64,000 bases of DNA from Actinoplanes italicus. GTDB taxonomy: Bacteria > Actinomycetota > Actinomycetes > Mycobacteriales > Micromonosporaceae. Below, one piece after another: positions 656 through 9,535 of the stretch (positions within the stretch are counted from its first letter, which is position 1; every line of letters starts with the position of its first letter). The notes beneath the pieces are model-generated. The model made no database searches. It worked only from the letters and a program-made list of their open reading frames with translations, and was not told the DNA's origin. Location of the stretch: positions 62,001 through 126,000 of the forward strand of contig NZ_PVMZ01000018.1 of assembly GCF_003001815.1 (NCBI RefSeq), read 5' to 3'. Both the position numbers and the translations under genes were made by a program.

Positions 656-1864
656 CTATCCGACAGAAGCTGATCGGATCCGGCCGCGCACCTCACCGAG
701 CCCGACGACTGTCCCGTTCGGACCTGGCGCAGTCGCGGTGATCACCACTTCGTCCCCGTCCGCGAGGAAGGTGCGTTCCGACCCGTCGGGCAGGGTCAGC
801 GGCTGTTGTCCGTTCCAGGTCAGCTCGATGAGGCAGCCGGGTGAGCCGCCGCTGACGGTGCCGGAGGCGAACAGGTCGCCGGTACGCAGGGACGCGCCGT
901 TGATCGTCATGTGCGCGAGCATCTGCGCGCCGGTCCAGTACATGCCGGTGAACGACGGGTTCGACACGACGTGTCCGTTGAGCCGGATCTCGAAGCGGAC
1001 GTCGAGGCCCCACGGCTGCGCCTTCTCGTCGTCGAGGTACGGCAGCAGCGGCACGGTCCGCTCCGGCGGCGACACGCGGGCGTGGCCGAGCGCCGCCAGG
1101 GGCACGATCCACGGCGAGATCGAGGTGGCGAAGCTCTTGCCGAGGAACGGGCCGAGTGGAACGTACTCCCAGGCCTGGATGTCCCGCGCGGACCAGTCGT
1201 TGACCAGGCACACCCCGAACACGTGATCGGGGAACGCGTCGAGCGCGACCGGTTCGCCGAGCCGGGAGGGCGTGCCGACGACGTAGCCGAGCTCTGCCTC
1301 GATGTCGAGCCGCTGCGACGCGCCGAAGGTGATCTCGCCGTCGGGGGTGCGCCGCTGGCCGGACGGGCGGGCCACCTCCGTGCCGGAGACGACGACGGTC
1401 CCGGCGCGGCCGTGGTAGCCGATCGGCAGGTGCTTCCAGTTCGGGGTGAGCGGGTCCTGGCCGGGCCGGAACATCTTCCCCAGGTTGGTGGCGTGCTGTT
1501 CGGAGGCGTAGAAGTCGACGTAGTCGGCGACCGTGAACGGCAGGTGCATGATCGCGTCGGCGGCCGGAACCAGGTGGCCGGAGAGCAGGTCGCGGTACAC
1601 CTCGTCGGTCAACCACGTGGTCACCTGCGCGCGCAGCGCCTGCCAGACGCCCGGTCCGGAGGCGAGCAGCGCGTCCAGGTTCGGCCCGGCGACGGCGGCG
1701 GCCAGCTCCGGCGCGAGCCGGCGGACCGCGGCCGGGAGGTCGATGACATGCTCACCGATCGCGACACCGGCACGCGGGTGCGCGTCGGCGGCGGTGCTGA
1801 ACACGCCGTAGGGCAGGGTCGTGATGCCGAACGGGTGGCCGGCCGGGATGTCGAGCCAGGTCAA
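656..1864 (-). CDS. fahA: Fumarylacetoacetase
   Basis: This enzyme hydrolyses 4-fumarylacetoacetate to fumarate and acetoacetate, the last step of tyrosine/homogentisate breakdown. At 402 residues it has normal family length. Visible signatures are D-Y-V-D-F-Y near residue 114 followed by H-A-T-N, giving the metal/catalytic pair Asp117 and His124; the metal-ligand pair Glu189 and Glu191 in E-A-E-L-G-Y-V-V-G; and N-D-W-S-A-R-D-I-Q-x-W-E-Y near 222 containing Asp223. I chose the TTG at 1864 because a GGAGG sits 8 bases upstream and the start overlaps the previous stop (TTGA). A longer reading to 1924 would overlap the upstream gene by 64 bases and shows no family resemblance. Confidence 0.93.
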   Translation of the reverse strand: MTWLDIPAGHPFGITTLPYGVFSTAADAHPRAGVAIGEHVIDLPAAVRRLAPELAAAVAGPNLDALLASGPGVWQALRAQVTTWLTDEVYRDLLSGHLVPAADAIMHLPFTVADYVDFYASEQHATNLGKMFRPGQDPLTPNWKHLPIGYHGRAGTVVVSGTEVARPSGQRRTPDGEITFGASQRLDIEAELGYVVGTPSRLGEPVALDAFPDHVFGVCLVNDWSARDIQAWEYVPLGPFLGKSFATSISPWIVPLAALGHARVSPPERTVPLLPYLDDEKAQPWGLDVRFEIRLNGHVVSNPSFTGMYWTGAQMLAHMTINGASLRTGDLFASGTVSGGSPGCLIELTWNGQQPLTLPDGSERTFLADGDEVVITATAPGPNGTVVGLGEVRGRIRSASVG

Positions 1865-2613
1865 CGCGGATCCTCCAGGAGTCGGAACTGTCGCAGGCCG
1901 GCGACCGGCTCGTCGATGCTGCACGTGCCGAAGCTGATGAAGTGGTGCCGGACCGCCTTGACCAGGACCTCGTCGATCGCGGCGACGGCCGCCGCCACAC
2001 GTTCGCCGTCCTGGTCGGCCAGCGCCCGCTCGATCTCGTAACCCTGCAGGGCACGGGCGGTCGCGAGCAGCACGTTGAGGAAACCGTGGTGCTCGAAACC
2101 GGTCACCGGGTCGCGGTGGCGGATCGGGTCGTGCAGGCCGGCGGTCAGTTTGAACGCGAGGCCGCCGCGCACCGCCGCCCAGAGGGCACCGGCCAGTTCC
2201 GACTCGTCCGGGAACGCGTCCGCCCGTACGCCACCGGTCCTGATCTTCAATCGCAACCCGGACTCCCGCAGAACCGCGACGCGTGCCGCGGTGATCTCCC
2301 GGCAGGAGATTTCGGTATATACGGGAAGGGTGCCGTGGGCGGTGAGCGATGGGCCCTCCAGCGCCACGACGTCCAGACCGTCAGCGGCCGGGATCTCGGA
2401 AACCGGCCCGGGAAGCACCAGCGAGACCTTCACGACGGGCCCGCCGGCCGCTGCCCCGGCCAGATCGCCGAAACGTGCGAGCGAGCAGACGAACGGCCCG
2501 ACGAGCGGCGAACCCTGCCGCTCCCGGTGGGCAGAAACGGCCACGTCCATCGGTGTGTTGCCCGGCGGGAAGATCGCCGCGTCGTCGAAGAGCCCCGCGA
2601 ACAACGGGTTCAC
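1861..2613 (-). CDS. Conserved protein of unknown function inside the homogentisate operon
   Basis: The 250-residue soluble protein sits between hmgA and fahA, with 4-base overlaps on both sides (ATGA upstream, TTGA downstream), so it is translationally coupled to the pathway enzymes. I do not recognise a characterised family. Visible landmarks are an N-terminal F-D-D-A-A-I-F-P-P-G-N, alternating beta strands and helices suggestive of an alpha/beta barrel, a G-F-E-H-H-G-F-L-N segment near residue 173, and a C-terminal H-H-F-I-S-F-G-T-C-S-I-D-E-P. There is no signal peptide or membrane segment and no glutathione-transferase signature. Its place matches the missing maleylacetoacetate isomerase step, but that role is inference from position only. 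Confidence 0.75.
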   Translation of the reverse strand: MNPLFAGLFDDAAIFPPGNTPMDVAVSAHRERQGSPLVGPFVCSLARFGDLAGAAAGGPVVKVSLVLPGPVSEIPAADGLDVVALEGPSLTAHGTLPVYTEISCREITAARVAVLRESGLRLKIRTGGVRADAFPDESELAGALWAAVRGGLAFKLTAGLHDPIRHRDPVTGFEHHGFLNVLLATARALQGYEIERALADQDGERVAAAVAAIDEVLVKAVRHHFISFGTCSIDEPVAGLRQFRLLEDPR

Positions 2614-3805
2614 GAGTTCCGCGCCCAGGTCCAGGCGTAGACGCCGTCGTCGCAGACGCGCCCGGCCTCGCCGAGCCCGAGCGGCCGGAACGTGTCGACC
2701 ATGACCGCCAGCTCGTCGAACCGTTCCGCGCCGAGGCTGCCCTCGATGGCGCCCGGCTGCGGCCCGTGCGAGTGCCCGCCGGGGTGCAGCGACACCGATC
2801 CGACGTTGATGCCGGAGCCCTTACGGGCCTCGTAGTCGCCACCGACGTAGAACATGACCTCGTCGCTGTCGACGTTCGAGTGGTAGTACGGCACCGGCAC
2901 GGCGAGCGGGTGGTAGTCGACCTTGCGGGGCACGAAGTTGCAGATCACGAAGTTGTTGGCTTCGAAGACCTGGTGCACCGGCGGCGGCTGGTGGACGCGC
3001 CCGGTGATCGGCTCGAAGTCGGCGATGTTGAACGCGTACGGGTACAGGCATCCGTCCCAGCCGACCACGTCGAACGGGTGGTGCGGCAGGAGGTGCACGG
3101 TCCCGGCCAGTCCGCCCGGCCCGTCGCCCCGATGCTTGATGTAGAGCTCGACGTTCTCCCCTTCGACGACATGAGGGGCGCCGGGTGTACGCAGATCGCG
3201 TTCGCAGTACGGCGAGTGTTCGAGGAACTGCCCGTACCGCGACAGGTAGCGCTTCGGCGGCGCGATGTGGCTGTTCGCCTCGATCGTGTAGAGCCGCAGC
3301 GGCGCGTCCCCGGACGGCACCCACCGGTGCGTCGTGGCCCGGGGCAGGATCACGTAGTCGCCGTGTCCCACTTCGAGGTCGCCGAAGACGGTCTCGACCG
3401 TGCCGGCCCCGGCCTCGACGTAGACGCACTCGTCACCGGTCGCGTTGCGGTACAGCGGCGAGGCGGTGCCCGCCACGACGTACCCGATCCGCACGTCGGC
3501 GTTGCCGAGGATCAGCCGCCGGTCCCGGACCGCGTCGCACGACTTCCACTCCTCACCGTCGAAGAGCTCGTGCAGACGCAGGTGCCGGGGCAGCAGCGGC
3601 TGGTTGGCCTCGGTCGTCTGGTCGGGCAGCTGCCAGATCCGGGCGCCGGCGACCGCCGACGGCACGTGCCGGTGATAGAGCAGCGACGAGTCGGAGGAGA
3701 AGCCCTCCTCCCCCATCAGCTCCTCGTAGTACAGCTTCCCGTCCGGAGCCCGGTGCTGGGTGTGCCGCTTCGGCGGCACGCTCCCCGCCGTCTGGTAGTG
3801 AGCCA

Positions 3806-3806
<1 letters not shown>
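2610..3806 (-). CDS. hmgA: Homogentisate 1,2-dioxygenase
   Basis: This non-haem iron enzyme opens the homogentisate ring to give maleylacetoacetate. The 398-residue protein has the double cupin layout of the family. It begins with a M-A-H-Y-Q-T-A-G-S-V-P-P-K-R-H-T-Q-H type N-terminus. The C-terminal cupin carries P-Y-Y-H-S-N-V-D-S-D-E-V-M-F-Y near 313-327 and H-P-G-G-H-S-H-G-P-Q-P-G near 347, whose His and Glu residues are expected iron ligands. It is slightly shorter than the eukaryotic and proteobacterial form, as is usual for actinobacteria. Its ATG touches the hpd stop by one base (TGATG), so hpd and hmgA are translationally coupled. Confidence 0.93.
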
Positions 3807-5047
<1,241 letters not shown>

Positions 5048-5133: not shown

Positions 5134-6726
5134 TCAATTTGCCCACACGCGGCCGCGGCCGTCGTGCTTCGCCTGGTAGAGACTGCGGTCGGCGTCGGAC
5201 AGCAGCGACGGCAGCTCGCCCCGGCTGCCGTGATGCACGCCGATGCTCACCGACACCGTCAGCCCGGCCGCCAGCTCGTCCCAGGGATGCGACCGGACAG
5301 CGTCGAGGATCTGCTGCGCCCGCGCCGCGGGGACACCGGTGTGCACGTCCGCGAGGATCACCACGAACTCGTCACCGCCGAGCCGGGCCGCCAGGTCGAT
5401 CTGGCGTACGTGCACCGCGAGGATCTGCCCGAGGCGGGCCAGCACCAGGTCACCGACGTCGTGACCGAACCCGTCGTTGACAGCCTTGAAGTGATCGACG
5501 TCGATCATCATGACGGCGTACGCCGACTCGTCGCCCCGGTCGTCGATCTCGCCCGGCCTGCTTCCCCGGTGCTCGTCGAGCGCCGCCAGGTAAGCCTGGT
5601 AGCCGCGCCGGTTCGCCAGACCGGTCAGCTCGTCCACCACGAGTTCCTTACGCAGCTGCTCGTGGTCGCGGCGGCGGCGCTCCACGGCGATGGCGTCGCG
5701 CATGCCGGACATCCGGTCCAGGCGGTCGTTCCAGCGCAGGGTGGCCAGTTCGTCGCCGTACCGGATGGCGGCCTTGTTCGCCCCCGGCCCTTTCGCCGCG
5801 ATGCACATGCGCAGCAGCTTGGTCCCGGTCGGCACCGGAACGCCCAGGTCCTCGCCGGCCTCCTCGGCCAGCGCCGCCGCCAGCTCGGCGTCACCGGCGC
5901 GGGCCGCCGCGATCGCCCCGCCCAGCGCGGCGACGCGGCCCTCGGCCGGCGTGCGGATCCCTCCGGCGATCGCGGACAGCAGATGCCGCATCCCGTGCAC
6001 CTCCTCGACCCAGACCGGCGGCCAGTCCGCGTCAGTCGGATCACCGGTGACCAGCGCCGTGCCCGCCCGGCCGGCCGCCGCGTCCCACTCGCCGATCGCC
6101 ACCAGGCAGCTGGCCCAGTCCAGTGCCAGGTCGAACGAGTTGATCGACACGACCCGTGCCTGCCGGCGGATCGTCTCCCCCCAGCGATCCCCCGGCTCGG
6201 CGAGGGTCTTCTCGGTCAGCTCGTAGTACTCCAGGGCGAGCTCCCAGAAGCCCAGCTCGTGGGCCACGCAGGCGACCTCGATCAGCGCCGCCGCCCGGTG
6301 CACCACCGGCACCGTCCGGTCCGCCTCGTCGAGCAGCACCACCGCCTGTACCAGAAGCGATGCAGCCGACTCCCCCGTCGTCGCGGTCCGCCGGCGGCCC
6401 GCGCAGCGCAACGCCTTGAGCGCCACCGCGAGAGCCAGCATCGCCGGGTCGCCGAGCACCACCGCCCCGTCGACCATCGCCTCGACGTGCGCGGTGTCGT
6501 CGAGGCCGTCCTCCAGGCAGGCCAGCGACCGGGTCATGTGGATCAGCAGGCGGACGTCCGTCCAGCCGTGCGCCGTCGCCTCCCGCTCGGCCCGGTCGAC
6601 CGCGGCCGGGTCGTTGTGTCCCTGCGCCGTCTCGATCAATCGATAGGCATGCTCGATCGCGGCCTCGTGCACAGCACTCAACGCCACGCGGTCGGGCACC
6701 CCGGTCCTCACAGTCCGCCGCTTCAC
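5134..6726 (-). CDS. Diguanylate cyclase (GGDEF) with helical N-terminal region
   Basis: The C-terminal domain (about residues 364-530) would make cyclic di-GMP from GTP. It starts with V-D-E-L-T-G-L-A-N-R-R-G, contains the metal-binding D-V-D-H-F-K-A-V-N-D and an intact GGDEF at 450-454, and has an RQID inhibitory I-site at 441-444, so both activity and product inhibition are expected. The first 350 residues are Ala-rich helices resembling tetratricopeptide repeats. No membrane segment is seen, so the protein is cytosolic. The ATG at 6726 was chosen as the first in-frame start; a GTG slightly downstream is possible. It lies upstream of hpd on the same strand with a 122-base gap. Confidence 0.88.
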   Translation of the reverse strand: MKRRTVRTGVPDRVALSAVHEAAIEHAYRLIETAQGHNDPAAVDRAEREATAHGWTDVRLLIHMTRSLACLEDGLDDTAHVEAMVDGAVVLGDPAMLALAVALKALRCAGRRRTATTGESAASLLVQAVVLLDEADRTVPVVHRAAALIEVACVAHELGFWELALEYYELTEKTLAEPGDRWGETIRRQARVVSINSFDLALDWASCLVAIGEWDAAAGRAGTALVTGDPTDADWPPVWVEEVHGMRHLLSAIAGGIRTPAEGRVAALGGAIAAARAGDAELAAALAEEAGEDLGVPVPTGTKLLRMCIAAKGPGANKAAIRYGDELATLRWNDRLDRMSGMRDAIAVERRRRDHEQLRKELVVDELTGLANRRGYQAYLAALDEHRGSRPGEIDDRGDESAYAVMMIDVDHFKAVNDGFGHDVGDLVLARLGQILAVHVRQIDLAARLGGDEFVVILADVHTGVPAARAQQILDAVRSHPWDELAAGLTVSVSIGVHHGSRGELPSLLSDADRSLYQAKHDGRGRVWAN

Positions 6727-6944: not shown

Positions 6945-8024
6945 GTGAGTGAACCGCCCGTGATCGCCCGGGTGACCGACGGCCTCGGCCGGCTGACCCT
7001 CAACCGGCCGGCCGCGATCAACGCATTGACCGCCGAGATGGTCGGCATCCTTCGCCGTACGCTGGCGGACTGGGCAGAGTCGGACACCGTGCACACGGTT
7101 CTGATCGACGGAGCCGGACCGCGCGGTCTCTGTGCCGGCGGCGACCTGCGGGCCATGCACGCGGATGCCGTGTCCGGCGGCACGGGATCACTGGACTTCT
7201 GGGCCGAGGAGTACCGGCTCAACGCCGACATCGCCACCTACCCGAAGCCGATCGTCACCTGGATGGACGGACTGGTCATGGGTGGCGGCATCGGCGTCTC
7301 CGCGCATGCGTCGGTCCGCATCGTGACCGAGCGGTCCCGTCTCGCCATGCCGGAGGTCGGCATCGGCTTCCATCCGGACGTGGGCGGATCGTGGCTGCTC
7401 GCCCACGCGCCGGGCGAGATCGGCACCCACCTCGCCCTCACCGGCGGGAGCATCGGCGCGGCCGACGCGATCACCGCCGGTCTGGCCGACCACTTCATGG
7501 CCGCCGACCGTCTCTCGGACCTCGTCAAGGCCCTGACCGGTACAAAATCGCCAGCACCAACCGCCTGCGACGGCACGGCACTTCCGGCCGGTCGTGACGC
7601 CGCCACCGAGTCGCGCGCCGGACAGGTGGCGGCGTCGCTCGCGGTGAAGCCGCCACCGGGCGTTCTGGACGCGGCCCGCACGTGGATCGACGAGTGCTAC
7701 GCGGGCGACGACGTCGAGGCGATCATCGACCGCCTCGCCCGGCATCCGTCGCCGGACGCGCAGGCCGCGGCCAAGGAGGTCGCCACCAAGTCACCCACGT
7801 CGCTGGTCGTGGCATTGCGCTCGGTGCGATCCGCGTCCCGGCTGCCCGGCCTCCAAGAGGCACTCGACCAGGAGTACCGCCTGTCGGCAGCCCTCCTACG
7901 ACTGCCCGACCTGGCCGAAGGCATCCGTGCACAGATCATCGACAAGGACCGGCGCCCGCGCTGGCAGCCTTCTACCCTGGCGGAGATGGACCCCGCCGTG
8001 GTCGACGCCTGCTTCGCGGGCTGA
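6945..8024 (+). CDS. 3-hydroxyisobutyryl-CoA hydrolase (enoyl-CoA hydratase/isomerase family)
   Basis: The 359-residue crotonase-fold protein most resembles 3-hydroxyisobutyryl-CoA hydrolase of valine catabolism. Oxyanion-hole segments are G-L-C-A-G-G-D-L-R near residue 62 and D-G-L-V-M-G-G-G-I-G-V-S near 108. The hydrolase-type catalytic motif M-P-E-V-G-I-G-F-H-P-D-V-G near 133 supplies the Glu and Asp that distinguish it from plain hydratases, and the roughly 100-residue C-terminal extension is also typical of hydrolases. The start is GTG at 6945, with GGGAGGA 6 bases upstream. It stands alone, divergent from the GGDEF gene to its left. A general enoyl-CoA hydratase role is the alternative. 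Confidence 0.85.
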   Translation: MSEPPVIARVTDGLGRLTLNRPAAINALTAEMVGILRRTLADWAESDTVHTVLIDGAGPRGLCAGGDLRAMHADAVSGGTGSLDFWAEEYRLNADIATYPKPIVTWMDGLVMGGGIGVSAHASVRIVTERSRLAMPEVGIGFHPDVGGSWLLAHAPGEIGTHLALTGGSIGAADAITAGLADHFMAADRLSDLVKALTGTKSPAPTACDGTALPAGRDAATESRAGQVAASLAVKPPPGVLDAARTWIDECYAGDDVEAIIDRLARHPSPDAQAAAKEVATKSPTSLVVALRSVRSASRLPGLQEALDQEYRLSAALLRLPDLAEGIRAQIIDKDRRPRWQPSTLAEMDPAVVDACFAG

Positions 8025-8137
8025 CCACGTTCCGGTTCGAGTCCGGCGGCGTTGAGAACCGTCCCGACCGGCGCCTCAGCGAGAGCGATCACGCCCGCCT
8101 TCCCTCAGGTGGCCCGGGTGGCCGCCGATGGGCGGGC

Positions 8138-9535
8138 GTGCCGAAACGACGCGCGATCCCGGGGTGGCAGCTCTGCCTCGTGCTCGGTGCCGTGGCCGCC
8201 GGCGTGTACGCGATGCTGCCCGCCGGCGGCTGGTGGCATCCCATCGCCTATGCCGTCGACGGCCTGACCTGCATCACGATCGTGCTGGCCGCGATCCGCC
8301 GTTACCGGCCGGACCAGCCGTCGACCTGGTACACGTTCGCAGCCGGGCTCGGCGTGTGGCTGATCGGCACGGTGATCGACCGGACCACGCTCGGTGCGCC
8401 GTGGACACACCTCAGCACGCTGCTGCTGCTCGTCGGTTATCCACTGCTCTGCCACGCCCTGATCGGCCTGATCCGGGGGCGGGTCCGCTCGCACGACCGG
8501 ACTGCCGGCATCGACGCCGGCATCGTGGCGACGAGCCTGGCTCTGCTGTTCTGGGCACTGATCGCCGAGGAGGTCGCGCTGCCGTGGACGCAGCTGGTGA
8601 TCGCGGCCGGCGACATCGCCCTGTTCATGCTGATCTCGCTGCTGGTCACCACGCCCGGCGCACGGACGGTCAGTTATCGGCTGCTGCTGGGCGCGCTGGC
8701 CCTGACCGGCTTCTCCGACGTGCTGATCATGACGATGCCGTTCCGGCCGGGTGACCTCGCCGACACGGCGCTGGTGCTGGGTAACGCGTTCGTCGCGGCG
8801 GCGACGCTGCACCCGTCGATGCGGCAGCTCACCGTGCCACTGGAGCACCCTCCGGCGTTCGTACGCCCGCGCCTGGCGCTGCTGACGGTCGCGATCCTGC
8901 TGGCCCCCGCGGTGAGTATCTACCAGGGTGCGACCGGCCGGATCGCCCAGAACTGGCTGCCCCTCGGCGTCGGCTCGATCGTGTTGTTCCTGCTGGTGAG
9001 CGCTCGGATGGCCGGTCTCGTGATACGGGTGGAGCATCAGGCCCGCCGGCTGTCGGTCCTGGTCAACCAGGATCCGCTGACCGGTGTCGCGAACCGCCGC
9101 CGCTGGGACGACGCCCTGGCCGGCGCCATGGCGCGGGCCGCCCGCACCGGCGAACCGCTGGTGGTGGCACTGCTGGATCTCGATCACTTCAAGCGGTTCA
9201 ACGACACGCACGGGCACCGGGCCGGTGACGACCTGCTCAGCGGCGCGGCCACGGCCTGGTCCACCGGTCTGCGTGACGGAGATCTGCTGGCCCGGTACGG
9301 CGGTGAGGAGTTCTGTGTGCTGCTGACCGGCCGGACCGTCGCCGAGGCGGCGCTGCTGATGGAACGGTTGCAGGCGCTCACCCCAAACGGCCAGACGTTC
9401 TCTGCCGGGCTGACCCCGTGGGACGGCCGGCAGACCGCCCAGGAACTGCTCGAACACGCCGATCGCCTCCTTTACGAGGGCAAACACACCGGTCGCGGAC
9501 GCGTGGTGACCGACCGCGCCACCAGCGCCGCCTAG
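8138..9535 (+). CDS. Membrane-bound diguanylate cyclase (GGEEF)
   Basis: The 465-residue protein begins with about eight or nine hydrophobic helices (residues 10-285), an integral-membrane sensor of unknown ligand. A GGDEF domain follows, starting near V-N-Q-D-P-L-T-G-V-A-N-R-R-R. The active site GGEEF is at 388-392 and the RDGD I-site at 379-382, so it should make cyclic di-GMP and be feedback-inhibited. I chose the GTG at 8138 because the membrane region begins just after it; the in-frame reading upstream overlaps the hydrolase gene and is compositionally an out-of-frame shadow. No clear ribosome site is present, so the start is uncertain. It ends inside the left arm of a palindrome shared with the next, convergent gene. 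Confidence 0.85.
   Translation: MPKRRAIPGWQLCLVLGAVAAGVYAMLPAGGWWHPIAYAVDGLTCITIVLAAIRRYRPDQPSTWYTFAAGLGVWLIGTVIDRTTLGAPWTHLSTLLLLVGYPLLCHALIGLIRGRVRSHDRTAGIDAGIVATSLALLFWALIAEEVALPWTQLVIAAGDIALFMLISLLVTTPGARTVSYRLLLGALALTGFSDVLIMTMPFRPGDLADTALVLGNAFVAAATLHPSMRQLTVPLEHPPAFVRPRLALLTVAILLAPAVSIYQGATGRIAQNWLPLGVGSIVLFLLVSARMAGLVIRVEHQARRLSVLVNQDPLTGVANRRRWDDALAGAMARAARTGEPLVVALLDLDHFKRFNDTHGHRAGDDLLSGAATAWSTGLRDGDLLARYGGEEFCVLLTGRTVAEAALLMERLQALTPNGQTFSAGLTPWDGRQTAQELLEHADRLLYEGKHTGRGRVVTDRATSAA

Follow-up and report, generated by a model that had tools for sequence, protein, structure and literature searches.

The window analyzed here is the whole stretch of 64,000 nucleotides from Actinoplanes italicus, and it carries near its start a minus-strand run of genes arranged head to tail in the order hpd, hmgA, X, and fahA, where X denotes the gene under study. 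The features are as follows:

656-1864, minus strand: fahA, fumarylacetoacetase (TIGR01266, 431 bits against a cut-off of 375.3; likely TTG start)
1861-2613, minus strand: X, 250 amino acids, GTG start; candidate glutathione-independent maleylacetoacetate isomerase, on the basis of the open reading frame, the family context, and the model
2610-3806, minus strand: hmgA, divergent homogentisate 1,2-dioxygenase (PF04209/PF20510/Cupin_2; TIGR01015 below cut-off)
3806-5011, minus strand: hpd, 4-hydroxyphenylpyruvate dioxygenase (TIGR01263, 419.6 bits against a cut-off of 277)

The original prediction of an operon with hpd, hmgA, and fahA was borne out, with FahA and Hpd scoring above the NCBIfam cut-offs. 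HmgA is of a divergent type (56.7 bits compared with the TIGR01015 cut-off of 510.75), and this type accompanies X in 74 of 80 loci, the best 80 of at least 580 relatives. One locus (L003) has X together with the classical HmgA type instead. At the hmgA/X junction (..TCGTGAAC..), the hmgA stop and the X start overlap by 4 bases, GTGA. The X stop and the fahA start (..CGTTGACC..) also overlap by 4 bases and, because these read TTGA, the fahA start is most likely the TTG at 1864. Just upstream of the operon, an enoyl-CoA-hydratase-like gene (6945-8024, plus strand) is flanked by two proteins in which GGDEF-like motifs were seen by eye (5134-6726, minus strand, and 7682-9535, plus strand).

The description of X as a 250-residue protein of no recognized family, coupled to hmgA and fahA by 4-base overlaps, was confirmed. 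X matched no Pfam and no NCBIfam family at E <= 10 and no PDB sequence, and 50 relatives, scanned singly or as a profile, gave no credible Pfam, NCBIfam, or PDB match; the weak Pfam and NCBIfam matches of single family members look like chance. Relatives at 29–67% identity retain the same polar residues, and X is therefore no chance open reading frame. Furthermore, no match to TIGR01262, the maiA family, was found at E <= 1 in the whole window genome, in agreement with the claim of the original prediction that the operon has no recognizable maiA; a maiA elsewhere in the genome, which would have spoken against that prediction, was likewise not seen.

The homogentisate pathway is one of the standard routes by which tyrosine, phenylalanine, and several aromatic compounds are broken down. 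In its known isomerase, the glutathione thiolate adds to the double bond of maleylacetoacetate, the bond rotates, and the thiolate is eliminated. Could X take the place of this enzyme, as the original prediction proposed? Its homologs would then be expected beside hmgA and fahA in genomes that lack zeta-class transferases. A pattern scan of a genome collection, which selects for parts of two conserved motifs, gave at least 594 matches, at least 580 of which encode X relatives; the best 80 were kept, all with actinobacterial record titles. Among these best 80 of at least 580 loci, fahA lies directly downstream on the same strand in 75, and the X stop overlaps the fahA start by 4 bases in 60. 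In the same 80, hmgA is present in 74, both hmgA and fahA in 72, one or both in 78, and hpd in 19. Neither hmgA nor fahA is nearby in L056 and L084; both genomes have fahA elsewhere, as do all nine genomes that were tested for it.

Since these 80 are the best of at least 580 and were selected by motifs, the key counts were repeated on a class sample of 246 genomes, the most even sample, in which fahA was called at E <= 1e-40. X was found in 80 of these genomes, fahA in 133 (114 over the cut-off), and both in 73. Thus, fahA is present in 73/80 genomes with X compared with 60/166 without X (Fisher p = 1.2e-17). The X copies occupy 85 listed places, which become 83 copies when the second pieces of split copies (G409, G531:C26) are merged, and 71 of the 83 lie next to fahA on its upstream side, in the same orientation and no more than 300 bases away. 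The homologs are thus mostly linked to fahA, whereas the original prediction would have been refuted by mostly unlinked ones. A phylum sample of 296 genomes, in which X was found in 15 genomes at first and in 16 with a profile, shows the same association, with fahA over the cut-off in 15/16 X genomes compared with 29/296 overall (p = 1.9e-16). There, 14 of 18 X places abut fahA, two do not (G000:C8, G279:C18), and two are contig ends (G269, G256:C9) that were left out of the linkage count.

The zeta-class transferase, on the other hand, was not found over its cut-off in these genomes. TIGR01262 was matched at that level in 0 of the 296 phylum-sample genomes and in 0 of the 80 class-sample genomes that have X. 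Weaker, GST-like matches appeared in 41/296 and 1/80, respectively; G121 and G353 are the only genomes with X that show one. X is thus placed as would be expected of a maleylacetoacetate isomerase of any fold, being linked to hmgA and fahA where no maiA match over the cut-off was found.

Is X confined to Actinomycetota? When an actinobacterial X was compared with plasmids, 24 of 72,556 records matched, six of them from Priestia and one from a cyanobacterium; where the match overlaps an annotated feature, as in 22 rows, that feature is called "hypothetical protein". In Priestia aryabhattai (Bacillota), the order is hppD, X, fahA, hisC, hmgA, and a permease. Provided that hisC encodes the tyrosine aminotransferase, no gene of this run other than X lacks an assigned role, and no step other than the isomerase lacks an assigned gene. 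The cyanobacterium Kovacikia minuta has hmgA-hpd divergent to X-fahA, and a Streptomyces plasmid has the order hmgA, X, fahA, CoA transferase A, and CoA transferase B. As a maiA control, six pseudomonadotal plasmids were picked out of 119 plasmids with fahA; five of the six have maiA no farther than 3.5 kb from fahA, the exception being Acidovorax. The original prediction pointed out that actinobacteria use mycothiol instead of glutathione, but mycothiol alone does not explain X, because X occurs also in Bacillota and a cyanobacterium.

A structure prediction, which the original prediction had also suggested, places X among the eight-stranded alpha/beta (TIM) barrels and closest to deoxyribose-phosphate aldolase (DERA). 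The AlphaFold2 model, made with 50 relatives, has a pLDDT of 96.6 and a pTM of 0.93. Plain Foldseek found no match at E <= 0.001 in either PDB or BFVD. With VIA-align, rows 1–26 are all taken by aldolases of the DERA type or by designs built on their scaffold (Z 11.7–13.3), where we take KE70, 1mzh, 1ktn, 1jcl/1jcj, EC1535, and the entries titled "an aldolase" and "covalent intermediates" to be of the DERA scaffold. The best match is 1n7k (Z 13.3, rmsd 3.2, 182 aligned), and the next after the DERA rows is homocitrate synthase (Z 11.4). Similarly, a second model, of a Rhodococcus ruber relative (pLDDT 95.4), has DERA-type enzymes or designs in 43 of its first 44 rows and matches 1n7k at Z 14.2 (rmsd 3.5, 206 aligned), with homocitrate synthase tying with DERA at Z 13.8. 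Neither X nor its relatives matched TIGR00126 or a Pfam DeoC family, and hhalign of X against DeoC alignments, local and global, gave P of about 0.2, which is not significant; the best local alignment, itself insignificant, pairs K122 and K154 of X with the two DeoC lysines. The predicted fold of X is a DERA-like barrel, and membership in, or homology to, the DERA family is not claimed from sequence.

Which residues of this barrel are conserved? Three stand out as candidate catalytic residues, numbered here from the codon after GTG (1 is added for a count from GTG), with their retention in the 71 fahA-linked class-sample copies:

2245-2247, minus strand: codon of K122 (K123 from GTG), on strand beta-6 (E120-124); proposed Schiff-base lysine; 70/71
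2149-2151, minus strand: codon of K154 (K155 from GTG), on strand beta-7 (E153-156); proposed second lysine; 68/71
1921-1923, minus strand: codon of C230 (C231 from GTG), immediately following strand beta-8; proposed nucleophile; 70/71

The same 71 copies retain R124 and P235 in all 71, T156 and H160 in 70, H175 and N179 in 69, and E85 in 66. C230 is the only near-invariant cysteine, any other cysteine being present in at most 39/71. Outside Actinomycetota, the Priestia protein retains the conserved residues, as does the Kovacikia protein except for R164 and H175.

K122, K154, and C230 occur together in 68/71 fahA-linked copies, and K154 is R or T in three. The three deviating copies are G413:C54 and G531:C26, whose genomes each have a further copy that retains all three (L201, L234), and G492, which has K154R in a single X copy. 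Among the losses in fahA-linked copies, G057 is without K122, H160, and C230, and G258 and G413:C54 are without K122, K154, and C230. In G456, a very degenerate X-like open reading frame (L219:6209-6949, profile score 18.4) abuts fahA. In G436, of the same family group, an open reading frame upstream of fahA (L213:7725-8378) has an N-terminus that is X-like by eye; it gave no match to the X profile and hence has no residue row. The genomes without a fahA match hold seven X copies, five of which (G350, G392, G405, G461, G501) are without K122, K154, and C230; G335 has K154T, and G336, with hmgA adjoining at a contig end, has all three residues. The full set is therefore found in 68/71 fahA-linked copies compared with 1/7 in fahA-less genomes (p = 2e-6, a guide only, as the genomes are related). 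Residues were tabulated for 82 of the 83 class-sample copies, with G357:C344, at a contig edge, left out.

The place in the operon, the linkage to fahA, the lack of a maiA match, the predicted fold, and the residue conservation are the grounds on which the isomerase reading rests, and from these we infer the substrate, the reaction, and the roles of the residues. The idea of a glutathione-independent isomerase, with which the original prediction began, is supported and is the best-supported reading of the enzyme's inferred function. We consider it likely that X is a non-orthologous maleylacetoacetate isomerase that replaces the zeta-class GST, and that it probably works without a thiol cofactor, by a built-in mechanism. 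HmgA would make the cis compound 4-maleylacetoacetate, X would convert the C2=C3 bond to trans, and FahA would hydrolyze the resulting fumarylacetoacetate.

How might X do this? In maleylacetoacetate, a cis enone, the ketone is at C4. In E. coli DERA, the lysines on barrel strands 6 and 7 are K167 and K201, and K122 and K154 of X presumably occupy the strands that carry the Schiff-base pair in DERA. It is conceivable that the C4 ketone is activated by Lys122, most likely as an iminium, with Lys122 tuned by Lys154 and possibly Glu85. The Cys230 thiolate would then add reversibly to the double bond, C2-C3 would rotate, and the thiolate would leave, while Arg124, His160, and His175 would keep the carboxylates in place; the enzyme-borne thiol of Cys230 would thus take the role of glutathione or mycothiol. 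More tentatively, and with somewhat less than an even chance in our estimate, X may represent a new class of cis-trans isomerase, in which a DERA-like barrel combines a Schiff-base lysine with a built-in cysteine thiol.

It is also possible, if improbable, that X is the isomerase and that the attacking group is a low-molecular-weight thiol (mycothiol, bacillithiol, or glutathione), with C230 serving a structural or ligand-binding purpose. Such a thiol is indeed used by the GST-type and DinB-type enzymes known to isomerize maleylacetoacetate and maleylpyruvate, and by eye C230 falls at the RFG[TAS]S stretch of the DeoC alignment, which we take to be the phosphate-binding site in DERA. However, Actinomycetota, Bacillota, and cyanobacteria use different thiols, and the same residues of X occur in Actinomycetota, Bacillota, and a cyanobacterium; moreover, that C230 is the one near-invariant cysteine argues against a merely supporting place for it.

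Alternatively, isomerization might happen elsewhere, through a thiol enzyme of the DinB/MDMPI type or by a spontaneous reaction with mycothiol, while X might have another job in the pathway, such as the removal of a by-product or an aldolase or hydrolase activity on the ring-cleavage product. An aldolase is indeed the closest fold to that of X, and a tyrosine-metabolism gene list for S. albidoflavus, in the figure legend available from PMC11012174, includes a mycothiol-dependent enzyme of the maleylpyruvate isomerase family. A title in the reference list of PMC10970868 (Fernandez-Canon 2002) reports a non-enzymatic glutathione bypass in mice. The genomes that have fahA without X speak for this alternative too: X is absent from 60/133 fahA genomes in the class sample and from 14/29 in the phylum sample. 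Of the 60, 21 belong to one family group (f4), and eight X-less f4 genomes that were examined have a classical HmgA far from fahA. Some X-less genomes have hmgA adjoining fahA with nothing between (L116, L118, L210, L221; G235, G214, and others), and X is therefore not indispensable. The fahA neighbors in X-less genomes, with few genes annotated per locus, offered no common alternative isomerase candidate; those annotated are regulators, a PF06983 protein, unrelated genes (acyl-CoA and others), and one aminotransferase whose tail is DinB-like. This aminotransferase (L120:8106-9584, in G274) lies between fahA and hpd, and its tail, which weakly matches DinB_2 (0.003, below the cut-off), is, as far as its sequence suggests, a possible different thiol-dependent isomerase. 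Eight genomes of a single genus, g8 (L106, L109-L115, L124-L131), have fahA alone, with classical HmgA far off and no X, and gave no maiA match over the cut-off. The exceptions, whether X-less or residue-less, have another isomerase or a thiol-driven non-enzymatic route, or else X is not essential.

Against such a separate site of isomerization stands the presence of FahA, the hydrolase of the very next step, in 73/80 X genomes, as does the Priestia run, in which X is the only gene left without an assigned role. A by-product role would, furthermore, leave unexplained why X abuts fahA where five of six pseudomonadotal plasmids have maiA nearby. We therefore regard this alternative as unlikely and favor X as the isomerase itself.

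Two further readings can be set aside briefly. That an enoyl-CoA hydratase homolog near the cluster is the isomerase, following the "mai" label that the available part of PMC4591350 gives to an enoyl-CoA hydratase listed beside fahA in Rhodococcus, is very improbable and was rejected, as the window protein of this type is encoded outside the operon and is matched in only 15/80 X loci (the best 80 of at least 580). That X assists FahA or HmgA as a partner without catalysis of its own is hardly credible, for despite the tight coupling and the few fahA-linked copies without conserved polar residues (G057, G258, G456), its barrel resembles that of an enzyme, and K, R, H, E, and C residues in it are nearly invariant.

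How does X, read as a maleylacetoacetate isomerase, compare with known systems? It would share with the zeta-class GST MaiA/HmgC (TIGR01262) the proposed reaction and the place near fahA, but it has no sequence match to MaiA, no GST is among the families matched by the 50 relatives, and its model is a TIM barrel, whereas MaiA has the GST fold. With DERA (DeoC), it shares the predicted fold and, going by the model, may share a lysine on each of strands 6 and 7; it differs in having no significant sequence or profile similarity, in its tyrosine-pathway context, and in the cysteine conserved behind strand 8. A DERA re-engineered to perform Michael additions (7p75, 7p76) resembles the proposal for X in fold class and, by its entry titles, in chemistry, as these name a Michael addition and a Schiff-base complex, but it is a laboratory enzyme and not a natural isomerase. 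MDMPI, of the DinB superfamily, is an actinobacterial cis-trans isomerase whose substrate is the analogous product of the gentisate route (genC of R. ruber, in the portion of PMC6498646 available); unlike MDMPI, which is a helical bundle, X is a predicted TIM barrel, and X and its relatives have no MDMPI or DinB match.

In the excerpts available from PMC6498646, PMC11889516, PMC4591350, and PMC11012174, no gene is convincingly assigned to the isomerase step in actinobacteria. Homogentisate supports growth of R. ruber Chol-4, and the cluster figure in PMC6498646 names hmgA and hmgB and no hmgC, while the accompanying excerpt mentions hmgABC genes in general; R. ruber NBRC 15591 carries hmgA-X-fahA (L072). 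For R. opacus R7, the excerpt of PMC4591350 gives hmgA as AII08874, fahA as AII08876, and the "mai" enoyl-CoA hydratase as AII08877, and the accession between hmgA and fahA is presumably X. The R. globerulus proteome, in the section available from PMC11889516, contains HmgA and HmgB, with no isomerase named there. Among the matches listed from the open-licence literature, none reports a glutathione-independent or TIM-barrel maleylacetoacetate isomerase. X is thus a named candidate to fill the isomerase hole in many genomes, and it would give an assayable function to a large family of "hypothetical proteins". If the proposal is true, tyrosine can be broken down without glutathione, mycothiol, or bacillithiol in Actinomycetota, Bacillota, and Cyanobacteriota, and double-bond isomerization by an enzyme with a thiol cofactor can be taken over by a barrel of the aldolase type.

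Two X homologs in genomes without a fahA match (L194:6986-7909, L195:7280-8200) have arginine in place of K122, K154, and C230 and leucine in place of H175, changes that perhaps point to a different function. The window genome has a second, unlinked X copy (G000:C8:25012-25827, L016, L121), which has lost T156, H160, and C230 and is probably a decaying or repurposed paralog.
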